From a virus: 64,000 nt of DNA. Where the stretch lies: IMG/VR virus record IMGVR_UViG_3300044729_001198, positions 62,001 to 126,000 of that record. The stretch is one strand, 5' to 3'. The notes under the pieces were generated by a model that had not been told where the DNA came from, did no database searches, and saw only the letters and a list, made by a program, of their open reading frames with translations. Below, in pieces: positions 2,770 through 62,218 of this stretch (position 1 is its first letter; the number at the start of each line of letters is the position of its first letter). A program made the position numbers and the translations under genes.

Positions 2770-2966
2770 GCAATTACCTTAACGATTTTTGTTTCAATAA
2801 CTGCGGTTACCTCGAATTCAAGATTTGAACCTTGGAATTCTTCAACCACCTTAACTTCAGCGTCCGTAACCGATACCGCATCTACGAGGTATTGTTCAGT
2901 TACTTTTTTAACACGTCCTTTGTCATCTTCATGATGAACTTTCACTTTTGCGATGTAATAAGCCAT
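2766..2966 (-). CDS. Hypothetical protein
   Basis: A 66-residue protein, predicted beta-alpha-beta (VKVHHEDDKGRVKKVTEQYLV, then ELEFEVTAVIE-like strands). I do not recognise a family. It is coupled by ATGA overlap to the SH3/KOW-like gene. Confidence 0.65.
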   Translation of the reverse strand: MAYYIAKVKVHHEDDKGRVKKVTEQYLVDAVSVTDAEVKVVEEFQGSNLEFEVTAVIETKIVKVIA

Positions 2967-3007
2967 AATTTATTTGTTTTTATTTGGTTTTAATAATTAG
3001 TGTTGGG

Positions 3008-3370
3008 TTAAAAAAATTTATTATCCGAACCATCACCCAACATACTTTTGATGATATCTGATATAGCCTTACCTTCTTCAGTAGCCCTATAACCAAGCTG
3101 ACCATTTTCGTCAATATGCATTTGAATCAATCCATGGTCGGACAAGTAGTCTACGATAGTATTGAATTGCCAGTCTCTATAGTCATTTAAGCAATCCAAT
3201 AATATAATGGTTAATCGTGTATTTTCATTTGCGTCATATAATCGTTGTTCTAAAAACTCAAGGAACTTAAATCGGTCATCGATTTGATTTAGTTTGTAAA
3301 AGTTTTCGTTCTCCAATAAAAGAACTACCTTTGCTACCATTTCTTGAAACTCATCTGGCTCCCAACTCAT
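3008..3370 (-). CDS. Hypothetical protein
   Basis: A 120-residue, mostly helical protein of unknown function. The C-terminal half (IVDYLSDHGLIQMHIDENG) resembles a winged-helix pattern, but no DNA-binding call is justified. It overlaps the upstream gene by 20 nt. Confidence 0.6.
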   Translation of the reverse strand: MSWEPDEFQEMVAKVVLLLENENFYKLNQIDDRFKFLEFLEQRLYDANENTRLTIILLDCLNDYRDWQFNTIVDYLSDHGLIQMHIDENGQLGYRATEEGKAISDIIKSMLGDGSDNKFF

Positions 3371-3536
3371 GTTCTTCTTTTTTTAGTTGTTCAAGAAACC
3401 TAATAGATTCTACACTACCAATCAAAGCATCAGCCGATGCAAATCGTTTTAAGACATATTCAGACCCATAGTCATAAACCATTTGTTGTAGAATATCAAT
3501 TGTTGGAACTATCTTTTTATTAAATCCCATCTTCAT
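3351..3536 (-). CDS. Hypothetical protein
   Basis: A 61-residue helical protein of unknown function, overlapping both neighbours by about 20 nt. This packing is typical of the early small-gene runs here. Confidence 0.55.
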   Translation of the reverse strand: MKMGFNKKIVPTIDILQQMVYDYGSEYVLKRFASADALIGSVESIRFLEQLKKEEHELGAR

Positions 3537-3804
3537 TTGATTTTAAACGTTCAGCCATCATTCGATTTGATTCTTGTCTATATTCTTTAGCCATCTTATT
3601 TAGATTCTTATGATGGTCATCCGTAATTTTAGAACCACGGTTTGCAGCATCAATATAAGCGTATCTTTTTAAATAGTAACCGGGAAGAGGTGCTGAGAAT
3701 TGTTTAAGATATTCAGCCTTTCCATCAAGGTATTCCATCAAAGCGTCATCTGATAACGACTCCAACTGATGGTCACTCAATTCATTTTTAGGGTCATATT
3801 TCAT
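3520..3804 (-). CDS. Hypothetical protein (start corrected)
   Basis: A 94-residue charged helical protein of unknown function. An in-frame ATG exists at 3819, but it lies inside the -7 box of the promoter, so the first usable Met is at 3804 (MKYDPKNE), 4 nt after the box. The transcript may therefore be leaderless. Confidence 0.65.
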   Translation of the reverse strand: MKYDPKNELSDHQLESLSDDALMEYLDGKAEYLKQFSAPLPGYYLKRYAYIDAANRGSKITDDHHKNLNKMAKEYRQESNRMMAERLKSNEDGI

Positions 3805-6282: not shown

Positions 6283-8415
6283 TTAAATGTTAACTTGGAA
6301 TTTTTCATTCAATGTTTTAGCAAGTTCTGATACTTGAGTCACGTTGATGAATGCGGCGTCCTTACCATACATCTTGCGGAATTGTTCACCACCACTCTGG
6401 CCGTAGCTATCCGTGATAAAGTAAGAAAGTACATTCACACCATACGAACGAATTTTCTTAACTTGGTCTGCGGTGTGGTTGACCGCTTGGTCACCACAGT
6501 AGTTGATGTCCGAGTTATCGAAACCGGGGTAACCATCGGAGAAGTTAATAAAGTAGGTATCAGTACCTTTCTTTACTTGAGTCAATTGTTTCATGATTGC
6601 CTCAAAACACAAACCCTCTGGTGTAGTACCATCGTACACAATGTGTTTAAAGAGTTGTTGAATCTTTGAAAACTTATCCTTACGACTATCATAAGCAATC
6701 AGAACCAATGGTTGGTATTTACCATTTCGGTTGTTGTGGATGGCGCGGTAAGAAATCACAACATCCATGTTTTGAGTCATTGAAGCAGCCTTAGCGATTG
6801 CGACAGCGGCAACTTGAGTATTGTCCCATTTAGAACCACCCATAGACGAACTTGCGTCAATTGTGATGTGAAGTAAAGCGGGATTGACTTGGGTGGCCAT
6901 GGTACGTTCGAAGATGTCAAAGTTACCAAACCCAATCTCATGAATCATACGACCACTCAAACGACCTGATTTCATTCGTGGAGTAACCAGTGAACGTTCT
7001 TCGTTACGAGTCTTGAGCTTTTTACCAAGTAGAGTACCCAAAGCAATACCTTTCTTAACATTCTCATCACCACGATTGACGTAGTGAGAATAATTGGTCA
7101 ACATACCAACCAAGTTGGACTCAATGAGATTCTTGGTCAAGTTGTTGATAATGTAAGTTTCAGTACCACCTGACTTTTGATTACCATACCAACCTTGTTG
7201 AAGATTCTTACCAGTAACTTCAGTCTGAATGTCAGCCTTATCAAGTGATTCGACTTTTTTAGAATCCGATTTACTTAACTTGGTTTTCTTAACCTCACCC
7301 TCTTGGAACTCTTTTTGTTTCTCGATAGCCTTTTTAAGTTGGTCAAGTTGTTTTTGAGTAAGACCATCCAAGTTACCACCAGCCCCATTTGAGTTAGAAC
7401 CGCCGGTAGGACTACCTTTCTCATTTGAGTCGGAGTTACCATTAGCTTCAGAGTCAGACTCCGAGTTAGATTTCATCGACTCACCACCACCACTAGCAGT
7501 CATACCTTGTGACTGGTTGGTAGCAGACTCTTCCATATCACCACTCATTGGTGAATTACCATTCTCACCCCCACCATTCTCACCAGACTCACCCGAGCCA
7601 GAGGATTGTTGTTGTGACTGACGAGTTGGAATGTTTTTTTCGATAATCATAAAAATCTCACCAGCAACCTCAAGAGCATCCCATGAATTTTTCAATCGAG
7701 AAATGTTACGAAGGTCAAGAACATTCCAAATCTCACGAAGACCATTCAAAGCATCAAGGTCACGATTTGAGTTTGTTAAGTTGATAATTCGGAACATATA
7801 AGAACCCCAATCTTCAGAACGATACTCTGATGATTGAAGACCTTTATCGATGATTGGAGCGTGGAAGTATTTGTCATACATTGACTGATAGTAACCACGA
7901 TAACCAGGAGCGGTGGTGAAGATAAAGTTGTCAATCCGGCGGTCCTCAACATAGTTAAGTAAGGACTTGAGATTCTCAATAGCGTAATGTGACACCCACG
8001 ATTGACTATCGAACCCATACTTTTGTTTAAGGAACTCGATATCAATTGATTGGGGAAGGTAGTTGTCACGAACCATAGCTTTAAGCGTCATAAAGTCCGT
8101 GAGTTTAATGTGAGAACCCTCGTGTAGAGCAAGACCCACAGTAGGGTCAAAGTCATCACCATCCATCTTAGCGGAGATAACAACCGACTTACCATCGGTG
8201 TAGGAATCACCACCCTTGTCATCAAAATGAACTGGAATCGATTGGCCAGTAACAATAGAAACGAAGTTAGAAATCGAACGTTTGTACGATACTAACTTCA
8301 TGATATCAGACGATTTACGTTCGATAGCATTTTTATCGTTGACTGAATAATCATCTTCGAACAACGATTTGTCCATCCAAAAGGATGAATAACTTGAATA
8401 CTTATTTTTCTTCAT
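6283..8415 (-). CDS. VWA-domain protein with HExxH motif (MoxR/CobT-type partner)
   Basis: A 710-residue protein in three parts. An N-terminal domain holds the zincin-like motif HEGSH at 98-102. A low-complexity Gly/Ser/Asn/Lys-rich linker covers about 280-370. A C-terminal VWA domain has the MIDAS motif DASSSMGG starting at Asp520 and a downstream Thr and Asp (DGTTPEG, NFSDGYP). This layout matches CobT/MoxR-associated VWA proteins, which pair with AAA+ ATPases such as the one encoded just downstream. The HEGSH motif suggests metal binding or proteolysis, but activity is unproven. It is the largest gene in the window. Confidence 0.85.
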   Translation of the reverse strand: MKKNKYSSYSSFWMDKSLFEDDYSVNDKNAIERKSSDIMKLVSYKRSISNFVSIVTGQSIPVHFDDKGGDSYTDGKSVVISAKMDGDDFDPTVGLALHEGSHIKLTDFMTLKAMVRDNYLPQSIDIEFLKQKYGFDSQSWVSHYAIENLKSLLNYVEDRRIDNFIFTTAPGYRGYYQSMYDKYFHAPIIDKGLQSSEYRSEDWGSYMFRIINLTNSNRDLDALNGLREIWNVLDLRNISRLKNSWDALEVAGEIFMIIEKNIPTRQSQQQSSGSGESGENGGGENGNSPMSGDMEESATNQSQGMTASGGGESMKSNSESDSEANGNSDSNEKGSPTGGSNSNGAGGNLDGLTQKQLDQLKKAIEKQKEFQEGEVKKTKLSKSDSKKVESLDKADIQTEVTGKNLQQGWYGNQKSGGTETYIINNLTKNLIESNLVGMLTNYSHYVNRGDENVKKGIALGTLLGKKLKTRNEERSLVTPRMKSGRLSGRMIHEIGFGNFDIFERTMATQVNPALLHITIDASSSMGGSKWDNTQVAAVAIAKAASMTQNMDVVISYRAIHNNRNGKYQPLVLIAYDSRKDKFSKIQQLFKHIVYDGTTPEGLCFEAIMKQLTQVKKGTDTYFINFSDGYPGFDNSDINYCGDQAVNHTADQVKKIRSYGVNVLSYFITDSYGQSGGEQFRKMYGKDAAFINVTQVSELAKTLNEKFQVNI

Positions 8416-8431
8416 AACTCTCATTTACAGT

Positions 8432-8464
8432 GTAAAGATAATAAAAATAGTTGACAATACCAAA
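8432..8464 (-). promoter_or_regulatory. Promoter of the VWA gene
   Basis: -7 TATCTTTAC and -33 TTTG with a 20-nt spacer, and tandem TTAACA repeats just upstream (about 8469-8487). Confidence 0.75.
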
Positions 8465-8472
8465 TCCCAATG

Positions 8473-8640
8473 TTAAGAAATTGTTAAATCTTTTTTGTGT
8501 TTCTCCTTACGAGTATAAGATTTTTTACTGGTTTGGGTTTGTTGTGTGGTCTTTTTTGAGATATGGTGAGCAGCTTCACCACGAGACCAACCACCATTGA
8601 AGTCCAATGGTTCTTGATATGTTTTGTTTTTCTTGCTCAT
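8473..8640 (-). CDS. Small basic hypothetical protein
   Basis: A 55-residue very basic protein (MSKKNKTYQEPLDFNGGWS, then a Lys/Thr/Gln-rich tail). The ATG is preceded by GAGAGGAGAG. The function is unknown. The charge suggests nucleic-acid binding or a ribosome-associated role, but this is inference. Confidence 0.7.
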   Translation of the reverse strand: MSKKNKTYQEPLDFNGGWSRGEAAHHISKKTTQQTQTSKKSYTRKEKHKKDLTIS

Positions 8641-8665
8641 TTTAACTCTCCTCTCAAATACATAA

Positions 8666-8697
8666 CAAAGATAATAAAAAAAGGGGACTTAAACAAG
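8666..8697 (-). promoter_or_regulatory. Promoter inside a terminator
   Basis: -7 TATCTTTG and -33 CTTG with a 20-nt spacer. The CTTG belongs to the terminator hairpin. Tandem TTAACA repeats lie at about 8705-8722. Confidence 0.75.
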
Positions 8698-8706
8698 CCC
8701 CCTTTG
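8674..8706 (-). terminator. Rho-independent terminator
   Basis: A repeat of the hairpin at 730-758 (GGGGG...CCCC with a T run on the minus strand), ending the unit of the exported 281-residue protein. Confidence 0.78.
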
Positions 8707-8736
8707 TTAAATTTTTGTTAAGTTATCAACATCCTA

Positions 8737-9582
8737 TTAACGATGTGTTAGCATCTTTTTTGTAGAACCATCGCTATAAACATAAATAATGATTTCATTT
8801 TCTCGAGCATAGTTAAGAGGTCTACCCAACATATCATACATAGCAACTAACTTTGGCTCGGGTCTTGATAAATTAAATACGTTTGATGTTGGGTTTGATT
8901 TACAAACATCCAAACGTCTAAACATAAAGGTATCTTGTCGTAAACATTTGTTCCACCATTGAGCATACATCAATACACGACCGGTGTCTTTAAATGTTAA
9001 ATCAGCAATCCGTGTTTGAGTATAACCTAAAAAGTCAGCGTCAGGAAAATCATACTCCATACCGATTTGGTAATCAGTTAGGTTATCCCATTCTTTTTGA
9101 GACATAGTATCCATCCAAGGACCTTTATAAAATACCATATAGTATTCCATACAAGTATCTTTCAATGGTATACCCTTAATATACGTCATCTCAAATTTAT
9201 ACTTTTTACAATCAGCCATGTTTACAGAATACCCAACACCTGCTCCGGGAAACTGAACAATATTAACTTCACGATATAAAGCAGTATCACATTTCTCACA
9301 TTTATTCCTAACTTTCAAATACAATTTGTATTTACCTTTGACGTTGAATTGTACTTCAACTATACCACGAATATCTTGAATTGTATCGGTTTTTTTGGTT
9401 TGGAAATCATACACCATAAATGTGTAATCAACACAACTATCATCGAGTATCTGACCACTCACATACCACTTGTAATAATTGCGCTCATTCCATTGTTGGA
9501 GTTTTAGTGAACTCCAATCACATTTTGCACTCGCTGTTGCTAAGGAGACCAAAAGCATTAACAGCATTACTATACGTTTCAT
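8737..9582 (-). CDS. Exported protein with possible type IX sorting-like tail
   Basis: A 281-residue protein with a clear Sec signal peptide (MKRIVMLLMLLVSLATASA), then a Cys-rich beta-rich body with paired cysteines. The C-terminal end (LVAMYDMLGRPLNYAREN, then a Tyr/Val strand and Lys-rich tail) resembles the Bacteroidota type IX secretion C-terminal domain, though it is shorter and lacks the usual NP start. It is probably a surface or secreted phage-encoded protein. The match is by pattern only. Confidence 0.6.
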   Translation of the reverse strand: MKRIVMLLMLLVSLATASAKCDWSSLKLQQWNERNYYKWYVSGQILDDSCVDYTFMVYDFQTKKTDTIQDIRGIVEVQFNVKGKYKLYLKVRNKCEKCDTALYREVNIVQFPGAGVGYSVNMADCKKYKFEMTYIKGIPLKDTCMEYYMVFYKGPWMDTMSQKEWDNLTDYQIGMEYDFPDADFLGYTQTRIADLTFKDTGRVLMYAQWWNKCLRQDTFMFRRLDVCKSNPTSNVFNLSRPEPKLVAMYDMLGRPLNYARENEIIIYVYSDGSTKKMLTHR

Positions 9583-12949: not shown

Positions 12950-12955
12950 ATGTTG

Positions 12956-13028
12956 AGCGAAAGAGGAGATTCGAACTCCCGACCCTCACCTTGGCAAGGT
13001 GATGCTCTACCAACTGAGCTACTTTCGC
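12956..13028 (-). tRNA. tRNA-Gly (GCC)
   Basis: A canonical 73-nt cloverleaf. The acceptor GCGAAAG pairs with CTTTCGC, the anticodon loop is TTGCCAA in stem TCACC/GGTGA, and the T-loop is TTCGAAT. Confidence 0.94.
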
Positions 13029-13031
13029 AAT

Positions 13032-13215
13032 TGTAATATCTTATCTCCGGTTTTTACTTATGGTTTGTTCCCCATAACCTGTTGACGTGCACATCAGAGC
13101 AGGGACCTGAACATAGTCTACTGAGCCGTTTCCAAACTTCCGATTTGTGGTTGCGACCCACTTGGAAGTCAGTAGTCCTTTCAGAGAAGCGATATCTCCT
13201 TATGTAGATATTACA
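13032..13215 (-). ncRNA. 184-nt structured RNA with 10-bp closing stem
   Basis: The ends TGTAATATCT and AGATATTACA are perfectly complementary. In order, the inside contains a short hairpin (GGAGA/TCTCT, 7-nt loop), a long arm (CTACTGA/TCAGTAG enclosing CTTCC/GGAAG and GTGG/CCAC) and a final hairpin TTATGG/CCATAA. That arm order recalls an enlarged tRNA. It abuts tRNA-Gly on one side and the 72-nt cloverleaf RNA on the other. No long reading frame is convincing. I recognise no known RNA family. Confidence 0.6.
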
Positions 13216-13218
13216 TTG

Positions 13219-13290
13219 AGCGGAGAGGTGGTTCTGCCCCACCATCTCTCATCTGGTTGATGAGTGAGTTTCTCTAAACTCCTCCTCCGC
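13219..13290 (-). ncRNA. 72-nt non-canonical cloverleaf RNA, copy 1
   Basis: It folds with exact tRNA geometry: 7-bp acceptor GCGGAGG/TCTCCGC, two linker bases, D-like arm GAGTTT/AAACTC with a 4-nt loop, one base, 5-bp anticodon-like arm CTCAT/ATGAG with loop CAACCAG, a 4-nt variable region, 5-bp T-like arm GGTGG/CCACC with loop GGCAGAA, and a discriminator. Loop sequences are not those of a translating tRNA: there is no U33, no TTC in the T-loop and no GG in the D-loop. Copy 2 shows compensatory stem changes. Confidence 0.7.
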
Positions 13291-13296
13291 GTTGTA

Positions 13297-13367
13297 GGTA
13301 TGAATCTCCGGTAACACTCGAATTAGATTCACTGCAGGCGGTTTCATTCCTGTCTTCAATTCATACC
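13297..13367 (-). ncRNA. 71-nt element with complementary ends
   Basis: Ends GGTATGAAT and ATTCATACC pair over 9 bp. Inside are CAGG/CCTG and an alternative GAATCT/AGATTC stem. It has tRNA-like size and lies between tRNA-Thr and the 72-nt RNA, but the internal arms do not give a clear cloverleaf. Confidence 0.45.
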
Positions 13368-13371
13368 TTGG

Positions 13372-13444
13372 AGCCACCAGAGGGACTCGAACCCCCGACC
13401 TACTGATTACAAATCAGTAGCTCTACCAACTGAGCTATGGTGGC
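13372..13444 (-). tRNA. tRNA-Thr (TGT)
   Basis: A canonical 73-nt cloverleaf. The acceptor GCCACCA pairs with TGGTGGC, the anticodon loop TTTGTAA sits in stem ACTGA/TCAGT, and the T-loop is TTCGAGT. Confidence 0.94.
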
Positions 13445-13516
13445 TTTTGAGAGGGGTGTTTTAGTGAGTGCTAACTTACCCCCCTCGGTGGGCTAGACTC
13501 AGCAGTTACTCGGCGA

Positions 13517-13666
13517 TTACTCGGCGCTAGTTGTGTCTACAACAGCGGTAGTATCTACAACAGCAGTCGTGTCAACGGCAGTAGAATCTACTGAAGTCTC
13601 TTCGGTTGAAGTTGAGCAAGATACCAAAGCCAAGGTAGCTACGAAAGCAAACAATACTTGTTTCAT
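13517..13666 (-). CDS. Small Thr/Val-repeat lipoprotein
   Basis: A 49-residue protein. The signal peptide MKQVLFAFVATLALVSC ends in a lipobox Cys at residue 17. The mature part is an acidic Ser/Thr/Val repeat (about three copies of DTTAVV). It would be an outer-surface or periplasmic lipopeptide, exported by the host. It lies directly downstream of copy 2 of the 72-nt cloverleaf RNA and probably shares its promoter. A plus-strand reading frame over the same bases is its shadow. Confidence 0.75.
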   Translation of the reverse strand: MKQVLFAFVATLALVSCSTSTEETSVDSTAVDTTAVVDTTAVVDTTSAE

Positions 13667-13712
13667 GGTTCGTTTCTCATTATTAAGGTTAAACATATGT
13701 GAACTAAATTTG

Positions 13713-13784
13713 AGCGGAGAGTTGGAACTGCCCCAACACCTCTTATCTGGTTGATAAGCGACTTTCTTTTAAGTCTTTCCCCGC
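13713..13784 (-). ncRNA. 72-nt non-canonical cloverleaf RNA, copy 2
   Basis: The arm geometry matches copy 1: acceptor GCGGGGA/TCTCCGC, D-like arm GACTT/AAGTC, anticodon-like arm CTTAT/ATAAG with the identical loop CAACCAG, and T-like arm GTTGG/CCAAC with loop GGCAGTT. Paired changes against copy 1 (for example GGTGG/CCACC to GTTGG/CCAAC) keep the stems. A promoter ends 10 nt before its first base, so transcription should start within a few nucleotides of its 5' end. Confidence 0.72.
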
Positions 13785-13794
13785 GATTGTTTAA

Positions 13795-13826
13795 CAAATA
13801 TACGAAATAAATTTCATATTGCCAAA
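13795..13826 (-). promoter_or_regulatory. Promoter of the 72-nt RNA copy 2
   Basis: -7 TATATTTG and -33 TTTG with a 20-nt spacer. The RNA begins 10 nt after the -7 box. Confidence 0.8.
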
Positions 13827-13834
13827 TCTTTTTT

Positions 13835-13858
13835 AAAAAAACCCCGACCTAGCTCGGG
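13835..13858 (-). terminator. Rho-independent terminator after tRNA-Ser
   Basis: Stem CCCGA/TCGGG with loop GCTAGG, followed on the minus strand by seven T. It separates the tRNA-Ser unit from the next promoter. Confidence 0.85.
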
Positions 13859-13873
13859 ATAACACATCGGATG

Positions 13874-32868: not shown

Positions 32869-35113
<2,245 letters not shown>

Positions 35114-61604: not shown

Positions 61605-62218
61605 CGAGATAATACCATTAAAAAGTCAAATTTTGATTTGTGTATTAAGGTAACATTTTCAGTTACCGATAAGGCAATCTCTAATGTAGATGATGGTGAG
61701 AAATACTCAATATTAGTGCTTCTTATAGAAGCCCATGTGCTTGGAAAATTTACCATAACAACATCAGAACAATCATACATACATTGTAGATATTCTTTTA
61801 ATTTAGTTGGATGGTCAGCAGGTCCCCCTTGATTTCCAGCAACTCCAGATGAGATTGCTAAATCATACTTTTTGTTAATCTTTGATTCTAAAATATCCGA
61901 TACCTCAAACGAATGTTCTTTGTAATTTTCAGATGCAATTTTAACAAACTCATCATTTATATCAATACCATGATATGACTTACAATTATAACCAAAATCA
62001 AAGAAAGAACCCCAGCCACAACCAAATTCAATAATTGACTTATCCGAAAACGGAATAATTGAATTCATAGCATCATATCTAAACTTCGCAGAAGTGCCAT
62101 CAGCTGACCCCCATGTCAGAGACCTATAGTCTCCAACTCCATATGTTTTTAAAGACTCAGCGTACCAAGTCATCATTCTTTCACGTTGATTCATATTTAA
62201 ACAATTATAGAAACCCAA
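61601..62218 (-). CDS. SAM-dependent methyltransferase
   Basis: A 205-residue class I methyltransferase with SAM motif IIEFGCGWGSFFDFG at about 55-70, DINDEF for the ribose acid and DLAISSGVAG for motif IV. It is part of the glycan operon and may methylate a sugar. A promoter lies within the end of the gene before it. Confidence 0.85.
   Translation of the reverse strand: MGFYNCLNMNQRERMMTWYAESLKTYGVGDYRSLTWGSADGTSAKFRYDAMNSIIPFSDKSIIEFGCGWGSFFDFGYNCKSYHGIDINDEFVKIASENYKEHSFEVSDILESKINKKYDLAISSGVAGNQGGPADHPTKLKEYLQCMYDCSDVVMVNFPSTWASIRSTNIEYFSPSSTLEIALSVTENVTLIHKSKFDFLMVLSR

Follow-up and report, generated by a model that had tools for sequence, protein, structure and literature searches.

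The window analysed here, a stretch of viral DNA of 64,000 nucleotides (nt; positions 62,001 to 126,000 of the IMG/VR record IMGVR_UViG_3300044729_001198, G000 below), encodes two 72-nt RNAs with the fold of a transfer RNA (tRNA). Judged from sequence comparison, they are probably, at roughly four chances in five, phage-encoded tRNA-Gly molecules that have been withdrawn from translation and provide the glycine supply for Mom-type DNA hypermodification. The RNA is real, cloverleaf-folded, structured and conserved, its family is absent from Rfam, and the comparison of loci shows that it is genetically tied to Mom. The two RNAs are the following:

13219..13290, minus strand: tRNA-Gly-like RNA, copy 1; G1 at 13290, discriminator U73 at 13219; acceptor GCGGAGG/UCUCCGC, anticodon-type loop CAACCAG, T-type loop GGCAGAA; 85.5 bits with covariance model R1
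13713..13784, minus strand: tRNA-Gly-like RNA, copy 2; G1 at 13784, discriminator U73 at 13713; acceptor GCGGGGA/UCUCCGC, anticodon-type loop CAACCAG, T-type loop GGCAGUU; 90.3 bits with model R1

An earlier note had placed both RNAs at exactly these coordinates. They lie on the minus strand, as does the surrounding tRNA cluster; an RNA read from the plus strand was rejected, as it folds more weakly and the neighbours are all on the minus strand. Each copy folds on its own into a cloverleaf, copy 1 at -31.5 kcal/mol (z -4.40) and copy 2 at -26.1 kcal/mol (z -3.46), values equalled by 0 of 200 shuffles in either case. In both, the acceptor has 7 base pairs (bp), the anticodon and T stems have 5 bp each, and their loops have 7 nt; the tRNA geometry that had been described holds, except that the D arm has a stem of 5 bp and a loop of 6 nt. 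In the window, the combination CAACCAG..GGCAG is found at two places (0.00 expected), which are also its sole occurrences in the whole 186,631-base record. Model R1 finds copies 2 and 1 in the window and no further match. In contrast to canonical tRNAs (RF00005), neither RNA was called by ARAGORN or reported by the Rfam tRNA model in the window, and no Rfam family up to E=5 lies over them on the minus strand. The sole overlapping Rfam row, the eukaryotic microRNA model MIR2275, is on the plus strand with an E value of 4.1, far under the cut-off, and was discarded.

Relatives were gathered from viral contigs and Planctomycetota genome contigs with DNA patterns built on the loop sequences. After a filter for complete cloverleaf pairing, 69 distinct sequences of 72 nt remained, which form a gap-free alignment (A1). 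A first, looser pattern was abandoned, since the matches listed were mostly chance and protein-coding, and a blastn search for relatives in cultured phages gave chance matches alone. Covariation was counted on the structure from the earlier note, with the D stem set to 5 bp. Among the 69 homologues, 98.3% of the 1452 stem cells are paired, and 16 of the 22 pairs show changes on both sides; compensatory cells number 376 against 117 in shuffles, and the covariation score reaches 0.701, compared with 0.194 when shuffled and at most 0.140 when the partners are slid. The covariation first seen between the two copies is thereby extended, and the computational half of the refutation condition set in the earlier note, a lack of homologues with further covariation, does not apply. 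Five pairs never vary, i.e., 1-72, 2-71 and 3-70 at the acceptor end and 52-62 and 53-61 in the T stem beside the loop, an invariance that is partly by construction, since the search patterns prescribed most of these columns.

The classical identity set of tRNA-Gly in Escherichia coli consists of CC at positions 35-36, U73, G1:C72 and C2:G71. In tRNA numbering, the middle loop of the family reads C32-N33-N34-C35-C36-A37-G38, with variable positions 33 (A/T/C/G) and 34 (T/C/A) and constant C35, C36 and A37. Thus, the loop CAACCAG, which had been described as fixed, is fixed in the two window copies, whereas positions 33-34 vary in the family and CCA at 35-37 is kept. G1:C72, C2:G71, G3:C70, U73, C35 and C36 are invariant in 69/69, although this was partly demanded by the search patterns. 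As a check for this bias, 16 copies were considered that had been found via the covariance model, a structure script, or patterns not naming all identity bases; all 16 have the CGCU end, CC at 35-36, G1 and G3, and one has U2. The bases of the identity criterion of the bacterial glycyl-tRNA synthetase (GlyRS), G1:C72, C2:G71, U73, C35 and C36, are all present in the RNA family. Furthermore, weak matches of R1 grade into tRNA-Gly(UCC) called by ARAGORN, intermediates exist with a canonical TPsiC loop yet G33 or an anticodon loop of 8 nt, and some family members still encode CCA. Because the identity bases are kept, the weak tail of R1 consists of tRNA-Gly(UCC), and intermediates are found, the family is most plausibly a descendant of tRNA-Gly(UCC). 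With the canonical form (RF00005), it shares the 7-bp acceptor, G1:C72, C2:G71, U73, C35-C36, G19 and C56, as well as the 5-bp anticodon and T stems and the 7-nt loops.

What the window copies have lost, as compared with canonical tRNA-Gly(UCC), are U33, A38 (replaced by G38), the TPsiC loop and G18; another difference is that the wobble base is free to vary. They carry A33, GGC at 54-56 and A18 in place of U33, T54-Psi55-C56 and G18-G19, with G19 and C56 kept. The absence of U33 and of a TTC T-loop had been noted correctly. The D-loop GG had also been called absent, which applies to G18; G19, which was in no search pattern, is kept in 69/69 opposite the invariant C56, and the two bases could retain one elbow pair. 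The elbow reads A18-G19, and the T-stem pair 51-63 is U-A or C-G and never G-C; these positions were compared with the replaced G18-G19 and the weak EF-Tu T-stem pairs of the Staphylococcus type of tRNA-Gly. C32 and G38 are able to pair in 69/69, closing the anticodon-type loop, and this pairing and the non-U33 base of the window copies argue against decoding, in line with the suggestion that normal translation is unlikely. The loops had been characterized as non-tRNA loops; translation features are indeed lost from them, but they are the loops of a tRNA-Gly with the glycine identity bases in place. These data also bear on the possibility that the RNAs are unusual but translation-active tRNA-Gly molecules reading GGN codons in phage mRNA. 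Their NCC anticodon, the canonical tRNA-Gly(UCC) relatives that grade into the family and the location inside a tRNA cluster would fit such a role, but position 33 and the wobble position 34 vary freely, C32-G38 closure is possible throughout, and the TPsiC loop and G18 are lost. Moreover, the phage already owns a canonical tRNA-Gly(GCC) (12955-13028), and decoding would leave the linkage with Mom, discussed next, unexplained. We consider translational activity very unlikely.

The partner gene of the RNAs was sought by clustering the open reading frames (ORFs) around them. At GC-rich loci, the RNA is contained in the 3'-terminal part of an ORF named Mom by Pfam (PF25680, E 1.1e-39). In 30/30 Planctomycetota-type loci with mom, among which are contigs of Planctomycetota metagenome-assembled genomes, the RNA starts 22-37 nt past the Mom homology, on the same strand, in the same codon phase and within the mom frame. 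An independent case is the low-GC contig L137, where the RNA follows the homology region of a Mom that is 36% identical to Mu Mom. In L137 (ORF 8068-8889, RNA 8789-8861) and in L236 (ORF 2870-3628, RNA 3512-3583), which represent distant lineages, the 3' end of the protein gene overlaps the tRNA-like RNA, and the same bases serve as codons and as cloverleaf. In a model of a Planctomycetota-type Mom, the RNA-encoded C-terminal tail (residues 212-252) has a predicted local distance difference test score (pLDDT) below 50. The tail was therefore rejected as a protein domain, constraint by the RNA being the simpler reading, and its sequence is probably constrained by the RNA. Matches of any kind were found in just 4/294 Planctomycetota genomes, which led to the rejection of a Planctomycetota host gene; because of this low frequency, the copies probably belong to a mobile element. 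A match in phage Melnitz (29.5 bits, 1 kb from mom) was read as a tRNA-Trp(CCA) with G73 and placed outside the family.

As the RNA sits 3'-terminally in the mom frame in 30 loci, it could also be a cis element of the mom mRNA, its cloverleaf attracting RNase P/Z or GlyRS and thereby limiting the expression of Mom, a protein that is toxic when expressed artificially (PMC12707154). However, in window-type phages two copies of the RNA occur, far from mom, and one of them has a separate promoter; moreover, processing alone would need no conserved glycine identity. A cis function is thus improbable, if slightly less so than a role in decoding.

The phage of the window has three mom genes, all outside the window, at 138988-139563, 144040-144678 and 145381-146043 of the record, whose products match PF25680 with E values of 3.5e-45, 1.8e-46 and 4.7e-34, respectively. 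At 144040-146043, two of them flank an ORF of 208 amino acids without Pfam or PHROG match (L303, L313). In jumbo phages, Mom domains are fused to restriction-endonuclease folds (PMC7824862), and this ORF possibly encodes a nuclease. Among RNA-selected viral records of 108 kb or longer, Mom is found in 7/8 (G000, G006, G007, G008, G009, G012 and G334), with 2-3 genes in each. The eighth, G015 (112 kb), has the RNA without Mom, and the record includes just 37 kb upstream of the RNA; in G000, G006, G008 and G012, mom lies ~63-77 kb upstream of it. The other Mom-negative, RNA-bearing viral records, G010, G011, G013, G014, G016 and G017, also end short. Conversely, 11/12 Mom-selected records of 118 kb or longer contain an R1 match. 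Some of these matches reach merely 38-45 bits, and each such record was inspected and has at least one copy with an altered anticodon loop; the altered-loop copy of G316 is still called tRNA-Gly by ARAGORN. A Mom-minus relative was sought as a control via the DNA polymerase and none was found: G342, the only additional long record that was checked, had been picked through its DNA polymerase only and has both the RNA and Mom.

Several considerations weigh against assigning the RNA to Mom. As most RNA-bearing phages are related, the co-occurrence represents a few independent lineages, not dozens, i.e., the window-type phages, the Planctomycetota-type elements and L137. In the window-type phages, the RNA and mom are ~50-77 kb apart, and their linkage there is co-occurrence in related phages, not a set of independent events, with no Mom-negative relative found. 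Several RNA-positive fragments are without Mom; the large ones stop short of the place where mom would be expected, which accounts for the absence by argument and not by observation. Phage Mu, P12002L and Psychrobacter Y8A, of which the whole genomes were searched directly, carry Mom without the RNA, and hence the RNA is not obligatory for Mom. Furthermore, U33 is present in 25/69 copies, some identity bases sat in the search patterns themselves, and the tRNA-Gly result for Mu, discussed below, rests here on one sentence of a meeting report (PMC12908700).

The RNA might instead supply glycine to a different phage enzyme, one that modifies cell wall, lipid or protein, and Mom would then just travel along. 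A precedent is the non-proteinogenic tRNA-Gly of Staphylococcus that feeds peptidoglycan synthesis (PMC4052509), and two strong family members, L206 10648-10719 (70 bits) and L180 489-560 (92 bits), lie on short fragment contigs in which no Mom was found. Against this stand the direct and recurring adjacency to mom in unrelated loci and the lack of a FemX-like gene beside the RNA in the clusters examined, no genome-wide FemXAB search having been made; of the alternatives weighed here, we give this one the least credit. A non-canonical tRNA-Gly-like RNA (50 bits) is also found in a Planctomycetota genome without Mom (G143; L297 1501-3017), where a "GNAT-phage-like" gene (PF22559, E 1.6e-47) and a ParB-like gene lie upstream of it. 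This locus hints at a possible second glycyl-RNA-dependent system and at a wider use of such RNAs by phage GNAT enzymes.

The predicted structure of Mom from a close relative of this phage (mean pLDDT 74.9) has Mu Mom as its best match (8bv8, E 2.2e-12), and the further matches are GNAT acetyltransferases. The PDB record 8bv8 describes the inactive S124A mutant of Mu Mom, and S124 is kept in 10/10 aligned Moms, among them all three from this phage. When all Mom types were aligned, their divergence was too great for a collection-wide scan. As the donor for Mom, a 2021 review proposed an acylated CoA, e.g., glycyl-CoA (PMC7824862). According to a sentence in a 2026 meeting report, adenosine hypermodification in Mu needs tRNAGly for glycyl transfer (R. 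M. B. Silva, New England Biolabs; PMC12908700). The Mu system (PF25680; PDB 8bv8) has the same enzyme family with the conserved S124 and, as far as that report goes, depends on tRNAGly. It differs in that Mu has no such RNA and presumably uses the tRNA-Gly of its host, whereas the phage studied here has its own donor RNA and three Mom paralogues.

A route from the RNAs to modified DNA can be proposed on this basis. The RNAs would be transcribed as tRNA-like molecules, copy 2 from its own promoter, and they fold into the cloverleaf shown by covariation. Since the glycine identity set is kept, charging with glycine by the host glycyl-tRNA synthetase is expected. The non-U33 base, the closed C32-G38 loop and the elbow without TPsiC and G18 would exclude the charged RNA from the ribosome and perhaps from EF-Tu. 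The GNAT-fold Mom would then move the glycyl group onto adenine of the phage DNA, consistent with the tRNA-Gly dependence reported for Mu. The product would probably be N6-carbamoylmethyl-adenine as in Mu, possibly via rearrangement of an N6-glycyl-adenine intermediate, which is our speculation, and would shield the DNA from restriction. A private donor would spare the Gly-tRNA pool of translation during heavy DNA modification; large phages, with up to three Moms and much DNA to modify, may gain from such a supply, and phages without the RNA, such as Mu, would borrow host tRNA-Gly.

The earlier note had considered a tRNA mimic, a decoy and a primer. Mimicry was nearly right, although the glycine identity and the link with Mom had been missed; a decoy or primer role explains neither. 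As a decoy, the RNA would soak up tRNA-processing enzymes or the defence nucleases with which the host cleaves tRNA, for which the tRNA fold and the location in a phage beside tRNA genes would be suitable. Such a function leaves unexplained why glycine identity is kept in acceptor and anticodon while positions 33-34 vary, and why the RNA is nested within mom genes, and we regard it as about as implausible as a role in decoding.

The closest known parallel to a glycine-donating RNA outside translation is found in Staphylococcus aureus, where tRNA-Gly isoacceptors with changed G18-G19 are held out of translation for cell-wall synthesis (PMC4052509). The phage RNA is likewise of a tRNA-Gly lineage and would stand outside translation; its A18-G19 and a T stem without G51-C63 may correspond to the changes in the staphylococcal RNA. 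The two would also be alike in function, as the staphylococcal RNA feeds glycine to an aminoacyl-tRNA-dependent transferase that makes the interpeptide bridge of peptidoglycan (PMC4052509). The phage RNA differs in being virus-borne and tied to a DNA-modifying enzyme, in its non-U33, C32-G38 closed loop and its T loop GGCAG, and in that the associated gene is mom and does not encode a Fem enzyme.

The other elements near the two RNAs in the window are:

13795..13826, minus strand: Bacteroidota-type promoter, TTTG-N20-TATATTTG, from sequence, a sigma-70 scan match at 13825-13797 and upstream comparison
13841..13860, minus strand: hairpin resembling an intrinsic terminator, which ends the preceding tRNA-Ser transcript ahead of the copy 2 promoter
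13296..13368, minus strand: a second RNA with conserved structure, immediately upstream of copy 1, with a 10-bp closing stem and a conserved AUAARnCCG...UACCGG core
13052-13113, minus strand: freshwater-1 RNA (RF02979), 74.3 bits, between copy 1 and tRNA-Gly
12955-13028: canonical tRNA-Gly(GCC), the phage's own

The promoter ends 10 nt ahead of G1 of copy 2, which is the first element after it, as had been proposed. TAnnTTTG is found at the same distance in 8/47 low-GC upstream regions, with TATATTG-type variants in others, and the predicted promoter type would fit a Bacteroidota host. The second structured RNA has 97.9% of the cells paired in its closing stem, 6 pairs changing on both sides and no matching Rfam family; its AUAARnCCG and UACCGG segments could form a pseudoknot, and it may belong to the same unit as copy 1. 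Relatives of it are present in L144, L150, L160, L177, L179, L193, L202, L131 and L139. The freshwater-1 RNA, a neighbouring phage RNA on the same strand that is unrelated to the two RNAs in sequence and structure, was rejected as their partner, as it is absent from 12/12 relatives searched. A small lipoprotein-like ORF with a VDTTAVVDTTAVV repeat lies between the two copies (13517-13696, minus strand), and the window also encodes a GroEL chaperonin (33503-35110, minus strand; phrog_5725, E 3.4e-161).

tRNAs withdrawn from translation are already known; what would be new here is the proposed role in DNA modification. No dedicated tRNA for DNA modification was found described in a literature search that covered neither most subscription papers nor any preprints, so that a prior description is possible. 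More generally, viruses are likely to possess tRNAs dedicated to donating an amino acid to DNA, which would stem from tRNA-Gly(UCC), have lost decoding but kept synthetase identity, and be used by Mom and probably by other phage GNAT enzymes (PF22559). The donor for Mom has long been open, and a tRNA-Gly evolving alongside mom provides independent genomic support for glycyl-tRNA in this role and makes the mechanism directly testable. The stepwise withdrawal of a tRNA from translation becomes visible, with intermediates surviving in phage genomes, and the RNA family may serve as a marker for finding further amino-acid-dependent DNA modifications.
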